A program made the position numbers and the translations under genes. Under the pieces are notes generated by a model. The model searched no databases, was not told where the DNA came from, and saw only the letters and a program-made list of their open reading frames with translations. Shown here one piece after another: positions 16,027-52,580 of a stretch of DNA of 64,000 nt. Source of the stretch: Acidobacteriota bacterium (GTDB taxonomy: Bacteria; Acidobacteriota; Blastocatellia; Pyrinomonadales; Pyrinomonadaceae); assembly GCA_003222895.1 (NCBI GenBank), contig QHXI01000050.1, forward strand, positions 24,975-88,974, given 5' to 3'. Every line of letters begins with the position of its first letter. Within the stretch, counting starts at the first letter, position 1.

Positions 16027-16821
16027 ATGAATGCTGCAGTTACCAAAAAGCAGATCGAGTCAACCCTCACAGATCGTTTTGGCGACGTGTTCGAACGATT
16101 CGAACGATTGCCGCCTAAGACTCTATCCACGGGTATTGGTGAAATTGATAACGCCTTGCACGGATTTCCTCGCGGCGCGATAACGGAAATCCATGGAACT
16201 GCTTCATCCGGCCGCACGAGCCTCTTGCTTTCAGCGTTGGCTGCCGCAACTTCACAAGAAGAGATTTGCGCACTCGTCGATTGCAGCGACACGTTTGATC
16301 TTTCATCGGCGGCAAAGGCCGAGGTCGATTTCGATCGACTGCTTTGGATTCGTTGCGGCCATAATCTCGAACGTGCTTTCAAAGCTGTCGATCTAATCTT
16401 GCATGCCGGCGGATTTGGATTAGTCGCTCTGAATCTTTGCGACGTGCCGGCAAAAACCGTTCGACGGGTCATCTCCACGTGGTGGTTTCGTTTTCGCCGC
16501 GCGCTCGAAAACACTCCAAATGCGTTGATAGTCCTCACGCCCATAGCCGCCGTCCATTCGTGTGCGGCGCTTGTCTTAGAAGTTAAAAGCGAAGCTTCAG
16601 TGTGGTCCAATAGCTTGTCGTTATTATCTGAAAATCGTTACAGCAGCTTCACGGCGCAACCGGAGCACGGCGGCCATCTTTCGCTGGTGCAAACCTCCCT
16701 TCCAACATTCTCATCAAATAAGGACTCGCATTTTCTGCAAGCGATGAACATCCGCGTCAACCGCGAGCGACCGGTTGAATGGCAGACGCGCGAAATAAAA
16801 TTTAAGGCTCACTTCCACTGA
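16027..16821 (+). CDS. imuA: ImuA-like RecA-related protein of the mutasome cassette
   Basis: LSTGIGEIDNALHGFPRGAITEIHGTASSGRTSLLLSALAAAT; degenerate Walker A (Arg replaces Lys); upstream of imuB-dnaE2. Confidence 0.8.
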   Translation: MNAAVTKKQIESTLTDRFGDVFERFERLPPKTLSTGIGEIDNALHGFPRGAITEIHGTASSGRTSLLLSALAAATSQEEICALVDCSDTFDLSSAAKAEVDFDRLLWIRCGHNLERAFKAVDLILHAGGFGLVALNLCDVPAKTVRRVISTWWFRFRRALENTPNALIVLTPIAAVHSCAALVLEVKSEASVWSNSLSLLSENRYSSFTAQPEHGGHLSLVQTSLPTFSSNKDSHFLQAMNIRVNRERPVEWQTREIKFKAHFH

Positions 16822-16901: not shown

Positions 16902-18404
16902 ATGTTTGCCTGCATTTATGACCGAATTGTCTCTAAAACAGCTGCTACGGATTCTGAGAACGAAACTGGATTTTCGCCGCTTGTCGATCTGGCATTTACG
17001 TTTTCTCCGCTGGTTGAGCAAACCAAGGCGGACACGGTTGTGTTCGATGTTACTGGACAAGATTTGCTGTTTGGGACACACCCGAATGTTCTCGCCAATG
17101 AGTTGAATGCCCAGAACGATTCAGTGCGCAATGTCGCGGATGAAATTGCGCGTCGCGCGGCGAAACTAAATCTGAAAATTAATATCGCGATTGCGGCGAA
17201 TCCCGACGCAGCGATTCACGCCGCGCGGTGCTGTAAAGGCACGACGATTATCGACGGCGATGACGTACTGTTACATCTTGCTCCTTTGTCGATTAGAAAG
17301 TTGGATTACTCACTGGCGCGAGTTGAAGCTGACCGCGCGGAAGAAATTCAAGCGACATTCGCGCTGTGGGGTGTGTGCACGTTTGGCGATCTGGCCCGGC
17401 TACCTTTGGCCGGCGTGGCAGAACGATTGGGCCAGGATGGGGTGCGATTGCAAAAGCTTGCGCAAGGGAAGACTGATCGCCAAATACATTTGGTGCGGCC
17501 GCCAATCGGCTTTGAGCAATCGCTCGAATTAGAAGATCCGATCAGTGAACTCGAGCCGTTCTCGTTCATTCTGTCGCGTCTACTAAATCAGCTTTGCGCA
17601 AATTTGCATGAGTACGCGCTGGCCACGAATGAGTTGCGGCTGCGACTGGTCACAGAGCGATGTTTAGAGTACCGACTTCAGTCGGGTATTTCTGCTGCCA
17701 ATGAAAAAGACCCAACTGAAGTTGGTGTTCTAAACACCTGTGACCTTCACGAGCGCACAATCACTTTGCCGGTGCCGATGCGCGATCCAAAAACGCTCCT
17801 GCGTTTGCTCTTATTCGATATTGAGGCGCAACCGCCGTCTGCGCCGATCATAAAAGTCTCGATTAGCGCCCAGCCGGTGAAGCCGCGCGCGTCGCAAACC
17901 GGATTATTTATTCCGCTGGCGCCTGAGCCGGAGAAATTGGAAATCACCTTGGCGCGATTGGCGAAGTTGGTTGGCGGTGAAAATGTCGGCTCGCCGGAAA
18001 GTCTAGACGCGCACCGGCCTGATTCGTTTCGAATGAAGCGATTTAGGCTGGCGACTCAGCGAAAGAAATCACGGTCCAATCTGCAATCCGTAATTCGAAA
18101 TCCGCAATCCGTCATGGGCTTCAGAATGTTTCGACCAGCGTGGCGAGTTGATGTCGAAACTATCCAAGGGAAACCGACGCGGATTAGCGCCCGAGGACAA
18201 GCATCCACCAGGATTCGCGGACAGGTTGTTTGCGCCGCCGGGCCCTGGCGCGGGTCGGGCGACTGGTGGAGATCTGATGTGTGGGCGAGAGATGAATGGG
18301 ACGTAGCGCTGGTTGATCCTAACGCACGAGAAAGCAAAGTCATCTGTCGCATTTATCGCGATTTGACGAATGAGCAATGGTTCGTCGAAGGCATTTATGA
18401 CTGA
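16902..18404 (+). CDS. imuB: ImuB, Y-family polymerase-like protein
   Basis: MFACIY start, VVFDVTGQDLLFG, C-terminal FRPAWRVDVE; located imuA-imuB-dnaE2. Contains two repeat-derived segments. Confidence 0.9.
   Translation: MFACIYDRIVSKTAATDSENETGFSPLVDLAFTFSPLVEQTKADTVVFDVTGQDLLFGTHPNVLANELNAQNDSVRNVADEIARRAAKLNLKINIAIAANPDAAIHAARCCKGTTIIDGDDVLLHLAPLSIRKLDYSLARVEADRAEEIQATFALWGVCTFGDLARLPLAGVAERLGQDGVRLQKLAQGKTDRQIHLVRPPIGFEQSLELEDPISELEPFSFILSRLLNQLCANLHEYALATNELRLRLVTERCLEYRLQSGISAANEKDPTEVGVLNTCDLHERTITLPVPMRDPKTLLRLLLFDIEAQPPSAPIIKVSISAQPVKPRASQTGLFIPLAPEPEKLEITLARLAKLVGGENVGSPESLDAHRPDSFRMKRFRLATQRKKSRSNLQSVIRNPQSVMGFRMFRPAWRVDVETIQGKPTRISARGQASTRIRGQVVCAAGPWRGSGDWWRSDVWARDEWDVALVDPNARESKVICRIYRDLTNEQWFVEGIYD
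17661..17736. repeat. In-frame palindromic element inside imuB (TGTTTAG...CTAAACA ends)
   Basis: TGTTTAGAGTACCGACTTCAGTCGGGT ... ACCCAACTGAAGTTGGTGTTCTAAACA, about 27-bp imperfect inverted repeat. Confidence 0.8.
18077..18118. repeat. Heptad-repeat element H2 inside imuB
   Basis: CAATCTG CAATCCG TAATTCG AAATCCG CAATCCG TCATGGG; encodes SNLQSVIRNPQSVM. Confidence 0.75.
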
Positions 18405-18517
18405 AAGTCAGTAGTTAGTAGTCAGTAGTTAGTTGAAAAGGAAATGCACACTGGTATCAAAAATGAATCAAAACAAGAAGCGCAACTGCTTACTGCTCAT
18501 CGCTCACTGCCCACTTA
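18405..18517. repeat. Heptad hairpin element H3 spanning the imuB-dnaE2 junction
   Basis: Arm 1 AAGTCAG TAGTTAG TAGTCAG TAGTTAG; arm 2 CAACTGC TTACTGC TCATCGC TCACTGC CCACTTA. Confidence 0.8.
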
Positions 18518-21500
18518 TATAGAACTCCATGCGCGATCAGCATTCAGTTTTCTTCGCGGCGCAGCGACGCCGGAAGAATTAATCGCTGTGTGCTCCGAAT
18601 TAAAGATGCCGGCGATGGCATTGCTTGATACTGATGGAATTTATGGCGCGGCGCGATTTCATCTGGCGGGCAAGAAGCTGAAGATCAAAGCGCACATTGG
18701 AGCGGAGATAACAGTTTCGAGTTTCAAGTTTCAAGTTTCAAGTTCGCAGCAGAGGAATGGCCATCGGAATTCAAAACTCAAAATTCACAATTCACAATCC
18801 GTATTCACCCTTCCGCTCCTCGTTCGTAATCGCGCGGGTTATCAAAACCTTTGCCGGCTGATCACCTTGATGAAGCTGCGCGTGCCGAAACATGCAAAGC
18901 CGGGCGAGTGTGCAGTGACTTTCGATGAGTTGGCGAAGTACGCGGATGGGTTGGTTTGCTTGACTGGTGCAGATGATGGGCCGTTGTTCACAAATTGTTT
19001 AGGCGCGAGCGTTGCTAGTTCAAAAGGCGGGCAGCGCCCGCCGCTAAACTTTGGCGAAGCACAACAAACAGCTGAGAGGCTTGTCGACATTTTCGGCAGA
19101 GAGAACGTCTATGCTGAGCTGCAACGTCACTTCAATCGTAATGAAGAAGTACGCAATCACGCGGTGATCGACATGGCGCGGCGCTTGAAACTTTCGTTGT
19201 TGGCGACGAATGGAGTTTATTATGCCGCGCGCGCTCAGCGGCAAGTTGCCGACGTGTTCACCTGCATTCGCAATCATGTACGCCTGGAAACCGCCGGACG
19301 ATTGCTGTCGATTAATTCAGAGCGGTTCGTGAAATCGCCGAAAGAGATGGCCGAATTGTTTGCTGATCTGCCGGAAGCGATCGCGAACACGGTCGAACTG
19401 TCTTCACGTCTGGATTTCACGCTGAAGGATCTCGGTTACGAATTTCCGAAGTATCCAGTGCCGCCGGGCGAGACGATGACTTCGTTTTTGCGCGCGCGAA
19501 CTTATGAAGGCGCGCGTTTGCGTTACGGCGGCAACGACGAATACGCGCGTGCAGAAAAACAGATCGAGCATGAATTGAAATTGATCGAGAAGTTGAAACT
19601 CGAAGGTTATTTTCTGATCGTTTGGGACATCGTCGAGTTTTGTAAGCGACAAGGAATTTTGATTCAAGGGCGTGGATCGGCGGCGAACAGCGCCGTCTGC
19701 TATTCGCTTGGAATTACCGCGGTCGATCCGGTGGGGATGGAACTTTTGTTCGAACGTTTTCTTTCCGAAGAACGTGGCGAATGGCCGGACATCGATCTCG
19801 ATCTACCCAGCGGCGATCAGCGCGAGCGCGCTATTCAATATGTTTACGAGCGCTACGGAAAACTCGGTGCGGCAATGACGGCGAACGTGATCACTTATCG
19901 CGGTCGATCGGCTGCGCGTGAAGTCGGCAAGGTGCTTGGGTTTGATGAAGAGACGCTCGGGTGTTTATCAGGCTTTGTGCATACATGGGAATGGAAAGAT
20001 CCGAAAGACACGACAGAACGTCAGTTCAAAGAAGCCGGTTTGGACTTGCGCGATCGACGCATCAAGAAATTTTTCCAGCTTTATCGCGCCGTGCAGGATC
20101 TGCCGCGTCACCTGGGCCAACATTCCGGCGGCATGGTGATTTGTCAGGGACAGCTTGATTCGGTGGTGCCGCTCGAGCCGGCGGCGATGCCGGGCCGCGT
20201 CGTCGTGCAATGGGACAAAGAAGATTGCGCCGATCTCGGAATCATCAAGGTCGATCTGCTCGGACTTGGCATGATGGCGGTGCTCGAAGAAACGATTCAA
20301 ATCATTCGCGACGATTACACGGAAGAAGTTGATCTTGCGCATCTCCCGCAAGACGACCCCGCCGTTTATTCCGCGCTGCAACAAGCCGACACGATTGGCA
20401 TGTTTCAGATTGAGAGCCGCGCACAGATGTCTTGTCTTCCGCGGCTGCGTCCAGAAAGCTTTTACGACATCGTGGTGCAGGTGGCGATCATCCGGCCTGG
20501 TCCAATCGTCGGCAACATGGTCAATCCTTATTTAGAGCGACGACTGGGGCGCGCACCGGTGAAGTACGCGCATCCGGATCTGGAGCCGGTGCTAAAGCGG
20601 ACGCTTGGCGTGCCTCTGTTTCAGGAACAACTTTTAAAGATGGCGATGATCTGCGCGAACTTCACCGGCGGGGAAGCCGAAGAGTTGCGCCGCGCGATGG
20701 GCTTCAAACGATCAGAGCAACGAATGAAAGACATTGAAAGAAAACTACGGCGCGGAATGACAGAGAAGGGAATCACGGACCGAGTACAGGATGAGATCGT
20801 GGATCAGATTGCATCGTTCGCGCTTTATGGTTTTCCCGAATCGCACGCGGCCAGCTTTGCCTTGATTGCTTACGCCAGCGCGTATCTCAAATGCCATTAC
20901 CTGGCGGCATTCACAGCGGCGACGCTCAACAATCAACCGATGGGGTTCTATCAGCCATTTACGATCATTAAAGATGCGCAGCGCCATGGATTGAAAGTTC
21001 TTCCGGTTGATGTGACGCGATCGAATTGGGAATGTGCTCTGGAAGACGGGAGTCAGGAGTCAGGAGTCAGGAGTAAGGAAGGCAGAGATCAAAGATCAGA
21101 GGTCAGAGGTCAGGAAAGCAGGGGGCAGGAGCCAGGAGCCAGGAGTTGGGGAAACACATCTGCCTCCCGACTCTCAGCTCCCGATCCCGCGCTTCGCTTG
21201 GGCTTGCTCTGTGTCAAAGGCTTGCGTGAAGAAGCGGGCCGCGCGATTGTGCGCGCGCGATCTGAGCAACCGTTTTCCAATCTCGATGATCTGCACCGGC
21301 GCGTGCCGGAGTTGAGAAAAGATGAATTGCGAAAGTTGGCGGCAGTCGGGGCTTTGAATTTTATAGAGCAGGGGGTAGGGGATAGGGGGAAGGGTGTAGA
21401 AAGAAAAACTGACTTTGCATCCGACGCTAGTGCTGTCGAATTGAATCATCACACTAGTATCTCCCAACTCCCTAACATTCATCGTCGCGATGCGCTCTGG

Positions 21501-26693: not shown

Positions 26694-27911
26694 ATGACTC
26701 CAAATGATTCACAAATGGACGTGCTTATGCGCCGCTTTGGTAGTGGTGCACAGGGCGAATCATTGGGCGATCACCTTGACCCGGACGAGATGAACACGTT
26801 TGCCGAAGGCGCGCTGCCGCCTGCGGCTCGTTCGCGTTACGTGTCACATCTGGCGGATTGCGATCAGTGCCGCCGGCAAGTCGCGCAACTCTCTATCACC
26901 GCCGGCGCAGTCGTGCGAAGTGAACAGTCCGCTGCTGCGAGACCAGAATCGCGATCGGTCTGGCAAATGCTGATCGGAATTTTCGCGCTTCCGGTTTTGC
27001 GTTACGTCGCATTCGCGGCCGTCGTCTTGGGTGTTGCGGGTGTTGCTTATCTCGCGTTGCGCCCGCGTAGCGAACAAAAGTTGGTGGCGAGCAGCGAGCC
27101 CCTTGAACAGCATCCGGCGAGTGCCCTCAAAGCTCCGGCTATCGATAATAATGGAAATACGCAAACGAATGCCGCGCAGAGCAGCTCGTCACCGACTGTG
27201 GCGGCGACTCCTTCTACTCAAAATCCGAAACGGGAGGACTTGCGAGTCGCGGAGAACATCGTGCCTCCGGTCGCCGCGAAACAAGCTCCGTTGCCGAGCA
27301 TATCCACCGAGAGCAAAGCCGGCGAATCGCAGGCTTATAAAGCATTGCCGTCGTATGCGCCGCCTCCGCCGGGCGAGTCGCAAGCTACCACTCAAGAGCA
27401 GCGGAGTGCTGCCGGCGGTGCCTCATATTCTCAGAAAAAAGCTGAAACTGCGGGGAAGGTTGATTCCGCTGATCGCGAACGAGACTTAGCCAAGGACGCA
27501 GTTCGAGCTGATGAGCCTTTGCGGCCTACTTATTCTGGTCAACCAACTTCGGTGACACGCAAAGCCACCGACGAAAAACAGAAAGGCGGCCCAAGCAGGA
27601 ACGTGGATAACCTGGCTAATCGCACTCAAAACGAGGTCCGCAATGAACCGGCAAAGGCGCGGACAGGCGGCGACAAGCAGAGTTCCGACGATGAATCATC
27701 CGAAACGCGATCGGTTGGCGGTCACAAGTTTCGCCGTCAGGGCCGTGGATGGATCGATCAAAAGTTCAAATCATCGATGGCGATGAAAAACATTTCGCGA
27801 GGCTCAGATGAATTCAAGGAGCTTGATTCTCGCTTGCAGTCTATCGCTCAACAACTTAGCGGCCAGGTCATCGTCGTGTGGAAGGGCCAGGCTTACCTCA
27901 TAAGTAAATAG
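26694..27911 (+). CDS. Anti-sigma factor-like protein with zinc-finger N-terminus and one TM segment
   Basis: AARSRYVSHLADCDQCRRQVAQL (HxxxCxxC) followed by TM VLRYVAFAAVVLGVAGVAYLAL. Confidence 0.75.
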   Translation: MTPNDSQMDVLMRRFGSGAQGESLGDHLDPDEMNTFAEGALPPAARSRYVSHLADCDQCRRQVAQLSITAGAVVRSEQSAAARPESRSVWQMLIGIFALPVLRYVAFAAVVLGVAGVAYLALRPRSEQKLVASSEPLEQHPASALKAPAIDNNGNTQTNAAQSSSSPTVAATPSTQNPKREDLRVAENIVPPVAAKQAPLPSISTESKAGESQAYKALPSYAPPPPGESQATTQEQRSAAGGASYSQKKAETAGKVDSADRERDLAKDAVRADEPLRPTYSGQPTSVTRKATDEKQKGGPSRNVDNLANRTQNEVRNEPAKARTGGDKQSSDDESSETRSVGGHKFRRQGRGWIDQKFKSSMAMKNISRGSDEFKELDSRLQSIAQQLSGQVIVVWKGQAYLISK

Positions 27912-28023
27912 TAAATAGTAAATCGCAAATCGTAAATAGACTTGAACCAAGGCGCCGGTTGATTCGTATCGATTTGGAGAGAAGCGTCTTTTCTATTTTC
28001 GATTAACGATTTACTATTCACGA
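27902..28023. repeat. Heptad hairpin element H8
   Basis: Arm 1 AAGTAAA TAGTAAA TAGTAAA TCGCAAA TCGTAAA; arm 2 TTTTCTA TTTTCGA TTAACGA TTTACTA TTCACGA; upstream gene's TAG lies in arm 1, next ATG 3 bp after arm 2. Confidence 0.88.
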
Positions 28024-28025
28024 GT

Positions 28026-52248: not shown

Positions 52249-52423
52249 CAAGTTCGGGGGGATTTATCTGAAGGATCGCTCGGCGGGCGGCTGGCGCAGC
52301 GGCTTGCAGCGCTCAGAGAAGTGATGGCGGCGGGGGCACGTTTGTTTGCGTGCTTGCCATCTTCCCCTTCAGCACTTGCCGTGCCACGAGTTCGAGAAAA
52401 GGCCGATGAGCCGCGAGCCGCGA

Positions 52424-52578
52424 AGGGCAAAGTGCAAAGAGCAAAGTGCAAAGAGCCAGTCGAGAAGTCAGGAGCAAGAGCAGCGCCGTATTCGAAATCG
52501 CGCGCCGCTTCAAAAACGAAAAGAGCCACGCGCGAATCGTTCCACGCCCGGCTCCTTGCTCTTTGCCCTTTGCTCTTA
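52424..52578. repeat. Heptad hairpin element H11, 3' of the TPR gene
   Basis: Arm 1 AGGGCAA AGTGCAA AGAGCAA AGTGCAA AGAGCCA; arm 2 GCTCCTT GCTCTTT GCCCTTT GCTCTTA; ends 2 bp from the TPR gene stop codon. Confidence 0.85.
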
Positions 52579-52580
52579 CG

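Follow-up and report, generated by a model that had tools for sequence, protein, structure and literature searches.

In the window (the whole 64,000-nucleotide stretch of acidobacterial DNA analyzed here), dnaE2 serves as a permissive landing site for small repeats and does not encode a new kind of enzyme. Comparison with orthologues revealed four in-frame inserts (S1 to S4) and a 24-residue N-terminal extension in the encoded DnaE2. The inserts are most likely dispersed, probably selfish repeats that have survived where the reading frame and the fold were spared, in a conditionally used polymerase; DnaE2 was non-essential in all the genetic studies cited in PMC3919608.

The dnaE2 frame is unbroken and its product scored 1201 bits in a profile search with NF004225 (cut-off, 939 bits). 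Together with the imuA-like and imuB reading frames directly upstream, it forms an imuA-imuB-dnaE2 cassette. The catalytic aspartates D449, D451, and D604 (motifs PDIDLD and KVDLLGL) are unchanged across a 52-sequence alignment and lie distant in sequence from the inserts. A structure predicted by AlphaFold from 52 sequences (mean pLDDT 80, pTM 0.81) has the overall fold of Pol III alpha and matches structures 7pu7, 4iqj, and 2hnh. The product is conserved and probably functional, an error-prone polymerase of the ImuA-ImuB-DnaE2 type. Since the Y-family polymerase domain PF00817 had no match in the 96%-complete window genome (G000), the ImuB-DnaE2 cassette may be the sole translesion route of that kind in this genome. 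The window ImuB lacks a segment of about 60 residues after MFACIY, which is present in 21 of 47 aligned sequences.

The first-pass annotation had described repeat insertions in a dnaE2 frame that stays open for 1183 codons, and this was confirmed by the reading frame, the lag-7 signal, and the orthologue comparison. When the window was scanned for self-similarity, the lag-7 signal was far above chance: 98 segments reached at least 25 of 35 matches at lag 7 and 12 did so at the harmonic lag of 14, but no segment did so at any other lag in the range 3 to 13 or in Markov-3 simulations. S1, S3, and S4 are degenerate 7-bp (heptad) arrays, but S2 is not a heptad element: it is a separate 53-bp GTTTAG...CTAAAC palindrome, a REP-like inverted doublet that belongs to a different class of element. 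The idea that one mobile heptad element had been copied to several dnaE2 sites was rejected, since the array units fall into different families and S2 is of another class. Compared with orthologues that have no insert, S1 is 31 residues long instead of 5, S3 is 49 instead of 3 to 8, S4 is 41 instead of 6 to 8, and the span between the anchors of S2 is 40 instead of 27. The features are collected in Table 1.

Table 1. Genes, inserts, and repeat arrays of the imuA-imuB-dnaE2 region (window coordinates).
Feature	Coordinates	Strand	Description or basis
imuA-like gene (RecA-related)	16027..16821	+	Pfam RecA PF00154, 3e-14; NCBIfam ImuA_translesion, 1.2e-12, under its cut-off
imuB (Y-family-like protein)	16902..18404	+	weak Pol IV model matches; homologous ORFs upstream of orthologous dnaE2
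REP-like inverted doublet GTTTAG...CTAAAC, in frame inside imuB	17662..17735	+	hairpin fold; orthologue alignment
Degenerate heptad array inside imuB, unit AATCCGC	18074..18115	+	lag-7 scan; unit family
H3 heptad array AGTCAGT/AGTTAGT, between imuB stop and dnaE2 ATG	18406..18433	+	TRF period 14 x 2.0, 100% matches
dnaE2, error-prone DNA polymerase, 1183 aa	18444..21995	+	NF004225; PHP, Pol3 alpha, finger, HHH_6, OB domains
Degenerate heptad run coding part of the N-terminal extension	18485..18515	+	sequence; orthologue N-termini
S1	18717..18809	+	residues 92-122; left array AGTTTCA, right array AAAATTC; PHP-domain beta-hairpin loop
S2	18997..19049	+	residues ~185-202; 53-bp REP-like doublet; loop between helices 180-185 and 203-217
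S3	21045..21191	+	residues 868-916; three heptad arrays and a weaker reverse-complement 3' arm; loop between strands 865-867 and 916-918
S4	21360..21482	+	residues 973-1013; G-rich heptad array, degenerate C-rich 3' arm; linker between helices 959-967 and 1014-1025

Folding of the 53-bp S2 element gave -25.8 kcal/mol, and that of the 74-bp imuB doublet, which forms one long hairpin, gave -36.0 kcal/mol. The S2 doublet is carried at the identical position by the congener L002, and the imuB doublet is common to L005 and L002. As a set, the window's own four inserts show weak secondary structure (z of 0.2, -0.9, 0.9, and -2.0), and the hairpin is clearer in the homologous S4 of L006 than in the window S4; the orthologue inserts taken together are more structured than the core (Mann-Whitney p 3.5e-10). 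At the 5' end, the annotated ATG had been placed within H3, but this array ends shortly before the start codon at 18444. Because 18444 is the sole in-frame ATG, GTG, or TTG that can be read before the conserved core, the N-terminal extension is probably translated. The heptad run that codes part of it is common to L006 and missing in L005.

It had been proposed that removal of the inserts would bring the protein near the length of a typical DnaE2. This was borne out: without the inserts and the N-terminal extension the protein has about 1048 residues, similar to insert-free orthologues, and when length was counted from the YxELH motif, the median was 1034 residues for insert-free and 1103 for insert-bearing orthologues, against 1159 for the window. 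The accompanying prediction that the inserts occupy surface loops agrees with the AlphaFold model, in which the segments with pLDDT below 50 (residues 1-7, 17-19, 102-114, 187-196, 873-910, and 980-1009) coincide with the inserts and the N-terminus; each insert is predicted to lie between defined strands or helices, leaving the catalytic region clear.

The DnaE2 core is under strong purifying selection, with a dN/dS of about 0.07 (0.063-0.074 against five congeners), while the few alignable insert codons gave a rough dN/dS of 0.34-0.58. Because of this difference, selection for an intact product is well supported. The first-pass annotation had argued from the repeated keeping of the frame to either such selection or special rules of insertion. 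The first of these stands on the core dN/dS, but insertion rules are not needed, since the loss of out-of-frame or stop-bearing insertions suffices. The frame-keeping of every net insertion is true by the definition of an open reading frame.

To compare orthologues, which were taken from whole genomes, we built a FastTree phylogeny of 93 DnaE2 sequences, nearly all acidobacterial, and counted changes without direction. The minimum number of presence/absence changes was 9 for S1, 4 for S2, 20 for S3, and 10 for S4. The four sites are empty in some lineages and occupied in others, and other sites are seldom used. In congeners and in other families, the same sites hold nonhomologous inserts, while they are short in insert-free orthologues. 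For example, among the congeners S3 holds a short AAGTTGACAACTT palindrome in L006 and L009, a longer element after the heptads in L005 and L007, and heptads alone in L002. Recent events are visible in close pairs of orthologues that differ by one insert; in one such pair, S3 is 40 residues long in L086 and 3 in L096. The inserts were also examined as conserved extra domains, and this was rejected: orthologues have the insert positions in common but not the sequences, and no insert falls in the catalytic core.

Repeat character was far more frequent in inserts than in the core. Heptad periodicity was found in 44 of 111 inserts versus 7 of 480 core segments, and palindromic structure (z of at least 3) in 46 of 111 versus 22 of 480, while 42 of the 111 inserts were neither at the thresholds used. 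A few S1 inserts in other lineages, of 23 residues in Acidobacteriaceae, do not vary in length and are not repeat-like, and for this reason some inserts may have turned into ordinary structure. Arrays as a general trait of C-family polymerases in the clade were rejected, as neither 14 DnaE1 orthologues nor the DnaE1 of the window genome had any, compared with 45 in 17 Blastocatellia DnaE2s.

An assembly error or a decaying pseudogene could in principle imitate such a gene, since repeats break assemblies, and the L010 contig stops near its S3. Yet the congeners and dozens of other MAGs independently show unbroken frames whose inserts sit at matching positions, and a dN/dS far below 1 speaks against a pseudogene, making this explanation extremely improbable.

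To see how the repeats are distributed beyond dnaE2, we surveyed 2.03 Mb of the window genome, sampled in stretches, with simple longest-ORF gene calls. The survey revealed 132 arrays at lag 7, compared with 16 at lag 6 and 24 at lag 8. Although called ORFs cover 90% of the DNA, 92 of these arrays fall between genes and 23 at gene edges, with 17 in ORFs. Five of the 17 in-ORF arrays belong to imuB and dnaE2, a share that is biased because the window was picked for its odd dnaE2. Some short host ORFs are probably spurious products of the longest-ORF calls; the credible hosts besides imuB-dnaE2 are an AIRS-family kinase (ThiL-like), a phosphomethylpyrimidine kinase (ThiD-like), hydantoinase B, an AddA-like UvrD/PD-(D/E)XK protein, a molybdopterin oxidoreductase, and one protein of unknown family. 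An excess of open frames in the in-gene arrays (p 0.006) was set aside, since an array within a gene necessarily has one open frame or more.

The units of the dnaE2 arrays are mostly members of genome-wide families that recur at scattered loci. Twenty-seven arrays lie within one mismatch of AAACTTG, while for random units the maximum averaged 8.6 and never exceeded 17. In addition, arrays occur in adjacent pairs (49 observed versus 4.3 expected), and the partners match as reverse complements and not as direct repeats, with a median score of 19 versus 6 for random pairs. Two heptad elements with reverse-complement arrays elsewhere in the window, at 27891-28025 (AGTAAAT...ATTTACT) and 52404-52579 (AGAGCAAAGTGCAA...TTTGCTCTTTGC), are part of this genome-wide inverted pairing. 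No transposase was tied to the heptads.

These data bear on whether the heptads moved into dnaE2 or arose there. We regard as possible, though doubtful, that they are not mobile and that the arrays are generated locally, through slippage and hairpin-templated (quasipalindrome) synthesis, in loops where changes in length are tolerated. The two arms of an element are reverse complements while the units differ between elements, congeners with the same S1 array differ in the number of its units, and the idea that heptamers may favor polymerase slippage is recorded in PMC4692102, all of which fit growth in place. Against it, the AAACTTG-like and other unit families are found again at scattered loci, near relatives differ in having or lacking whole arrays, and slippage alone leaves the REP-like doublets unexplained. 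The arm-to-arm match favors a templated step; the dispersed unit families favor movement. This alternative concerns only the origin of the arrays and is compatible with their being neutral passengers.

From the same pairing, we put forward, as a tentative proposal, that paired heptad arrays, in which a short spacer separates a 7-bp array from its reverse complement, may constitute a distinct class of small dispersed elements that keep the period and the hairpin while the unit differs from element to element. Such an architecture would imply that one arm is copied from the other, with the DnaE2 loops as recurrent sites of landing or growth.

For the REP-like doublets, the evidence is folding and not pattern count. 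Enrichment of GTTTAG...CTAAAC by count was rejected, with 14 occurrences of the raw pattern versus 28 of the reversed control. Twelve of the 15 folded GTTTAG matches in the 2.03 Mb, some of which overlap, are intergenic. A VWA-domain protein at L171:13122-16325 (C79:33119-36325) carries an in-frame 64-bp GTTTAG/CTAAAC doublet that codes GGLPPSSSGSQAGGSPPLN. Among the 8 Y1_Tnp loci in the sampled genome, 7 of them above the cut-off, we found no transposase gene clearly flanked by a GTTTAG doublet, and a lone GTTTAG hairpin occurred only near L144. At that locus (L144:1200-2220) the Y1_Tnp gene stands amid repeated AAGCCTGCGGAGCAGGCG-type palindromes, a REP-like family distinct from the GTTTAG doublets.

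The kind of gene that harbors these repeats raises the question of whether the inserts are functional modules, that is, disordered charged linkers that tune the contacts of DnaE2 with ImuB, the clamp, or DNA and are selected at set places. S1, S3, and S4 have been refilled many times, DnaE2, ImuB, and the AddA-like protein make up 3 of the roughly 8 credible heptad-array hosts in the 2.03 Mb, and REP-tagged genes are often DNA synthesis or repair genes (Di Nocera et al., PMC3733652), for which mutator evolution has been voiced in the same paper. However, the insert sequences are unrelated between species, their lengths are diverse (3-134 residues at S3 among orthologues), their dN/dS is far above that of the core, and many orthologues have no inserts, and we therefore consider selected modules unlikely. 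By analogy with the host bias described in PMC3733652, it is possible that the loops alter mutagenesis.

Most probably, heptad-armed elements and REP-like palindromic doublets have inserted into dnaE2 at four tolerant places: the PHP-domain hairpin loop, a second N-terminal loop, the beta-hairpin loop beside the (HhH)2 domain, and the linker leading to the OB fold. Selection would purge insertions that break the frame, add a stop, or strike the folded core, and the survivors would remain as disordered, presumably neutral loops that expand, contract, or give way to others, in a polymerase that is probably still produced and active.

The gene is a natural experiment of unusual clarity on the entry of small repeats into protein-coding genes. 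With dozens of insertion states at the same DnaE2 loops, frame selection, loop tolerance, and repeat turnover can be read directly, and these states map the insertion-tolerant positions of the protein. Since the host polymerase is mutagenic, an effect of the loops on mutation rate is testable. The paired heptads raise the separate question of the source of matching 7-bp arms with element-specific units.

The general phenomenon is already known, from in-frame RPEs in Rickettsia and from intragenic REPs in many bacteria, dnaE2 included. In the open-licence literature, we did not find phylum-wide reuse of DnaE2 loops by unrelated repeats, an abundance of heptad arrays in these loops, or inverted heptad pairing in Acidobacteriota, which is weak evidence of absence. 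The closest parallel is the GTAG/CGTC REPs (Di Nocera et al. 2013, PMC3733652). These short palindromes, in many cases doublets, lie in frame in genes; their hosts include repair genes, dnaE2 among them, and loops or linkers were suggested as tolerant sites. In contrast to those REPs, most dnaE2 inserts here are heptad arrays, and the loops are reused phylum-wide by many types of element, while in that study REPs at the same site were found for recB only and at different sites in other genes of that category. The RPEs of Rickettsia (PMC10969869) are likewise selfish palindromes in frame in genes whose products are probably still functional, but they are about 150 bp long and encode conserved peptides, while inserts at the same site here are unrelated between congeners and so do not qualify as RPEs. 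S2 and the imuB doublet resemble REPINs, the REP doublets associated with RAYT transposases (PMC3116915), as inverted doublets that fold to hairpins, with roughly a dozen similar, mostly extragenic copies in the sampled genome, but their tag is GTTTAG/CTAAAC and not GTAG (or CGTC). The heptads resemble the heptameric tandem repeats of Nostoc, Xanthomonas, and Beggiatoaceae (PMC4692102, PMC4679880), tandem 7-bp units that are mostly intergenic and scattered over the genome; those studies center on one or a few units, while here there are many unit families, commonly in inverted pairs and some of them coding. What is less familiar in the present case is that heptads come in pairs and that the same DnaE2 loops are reused across the phylum.
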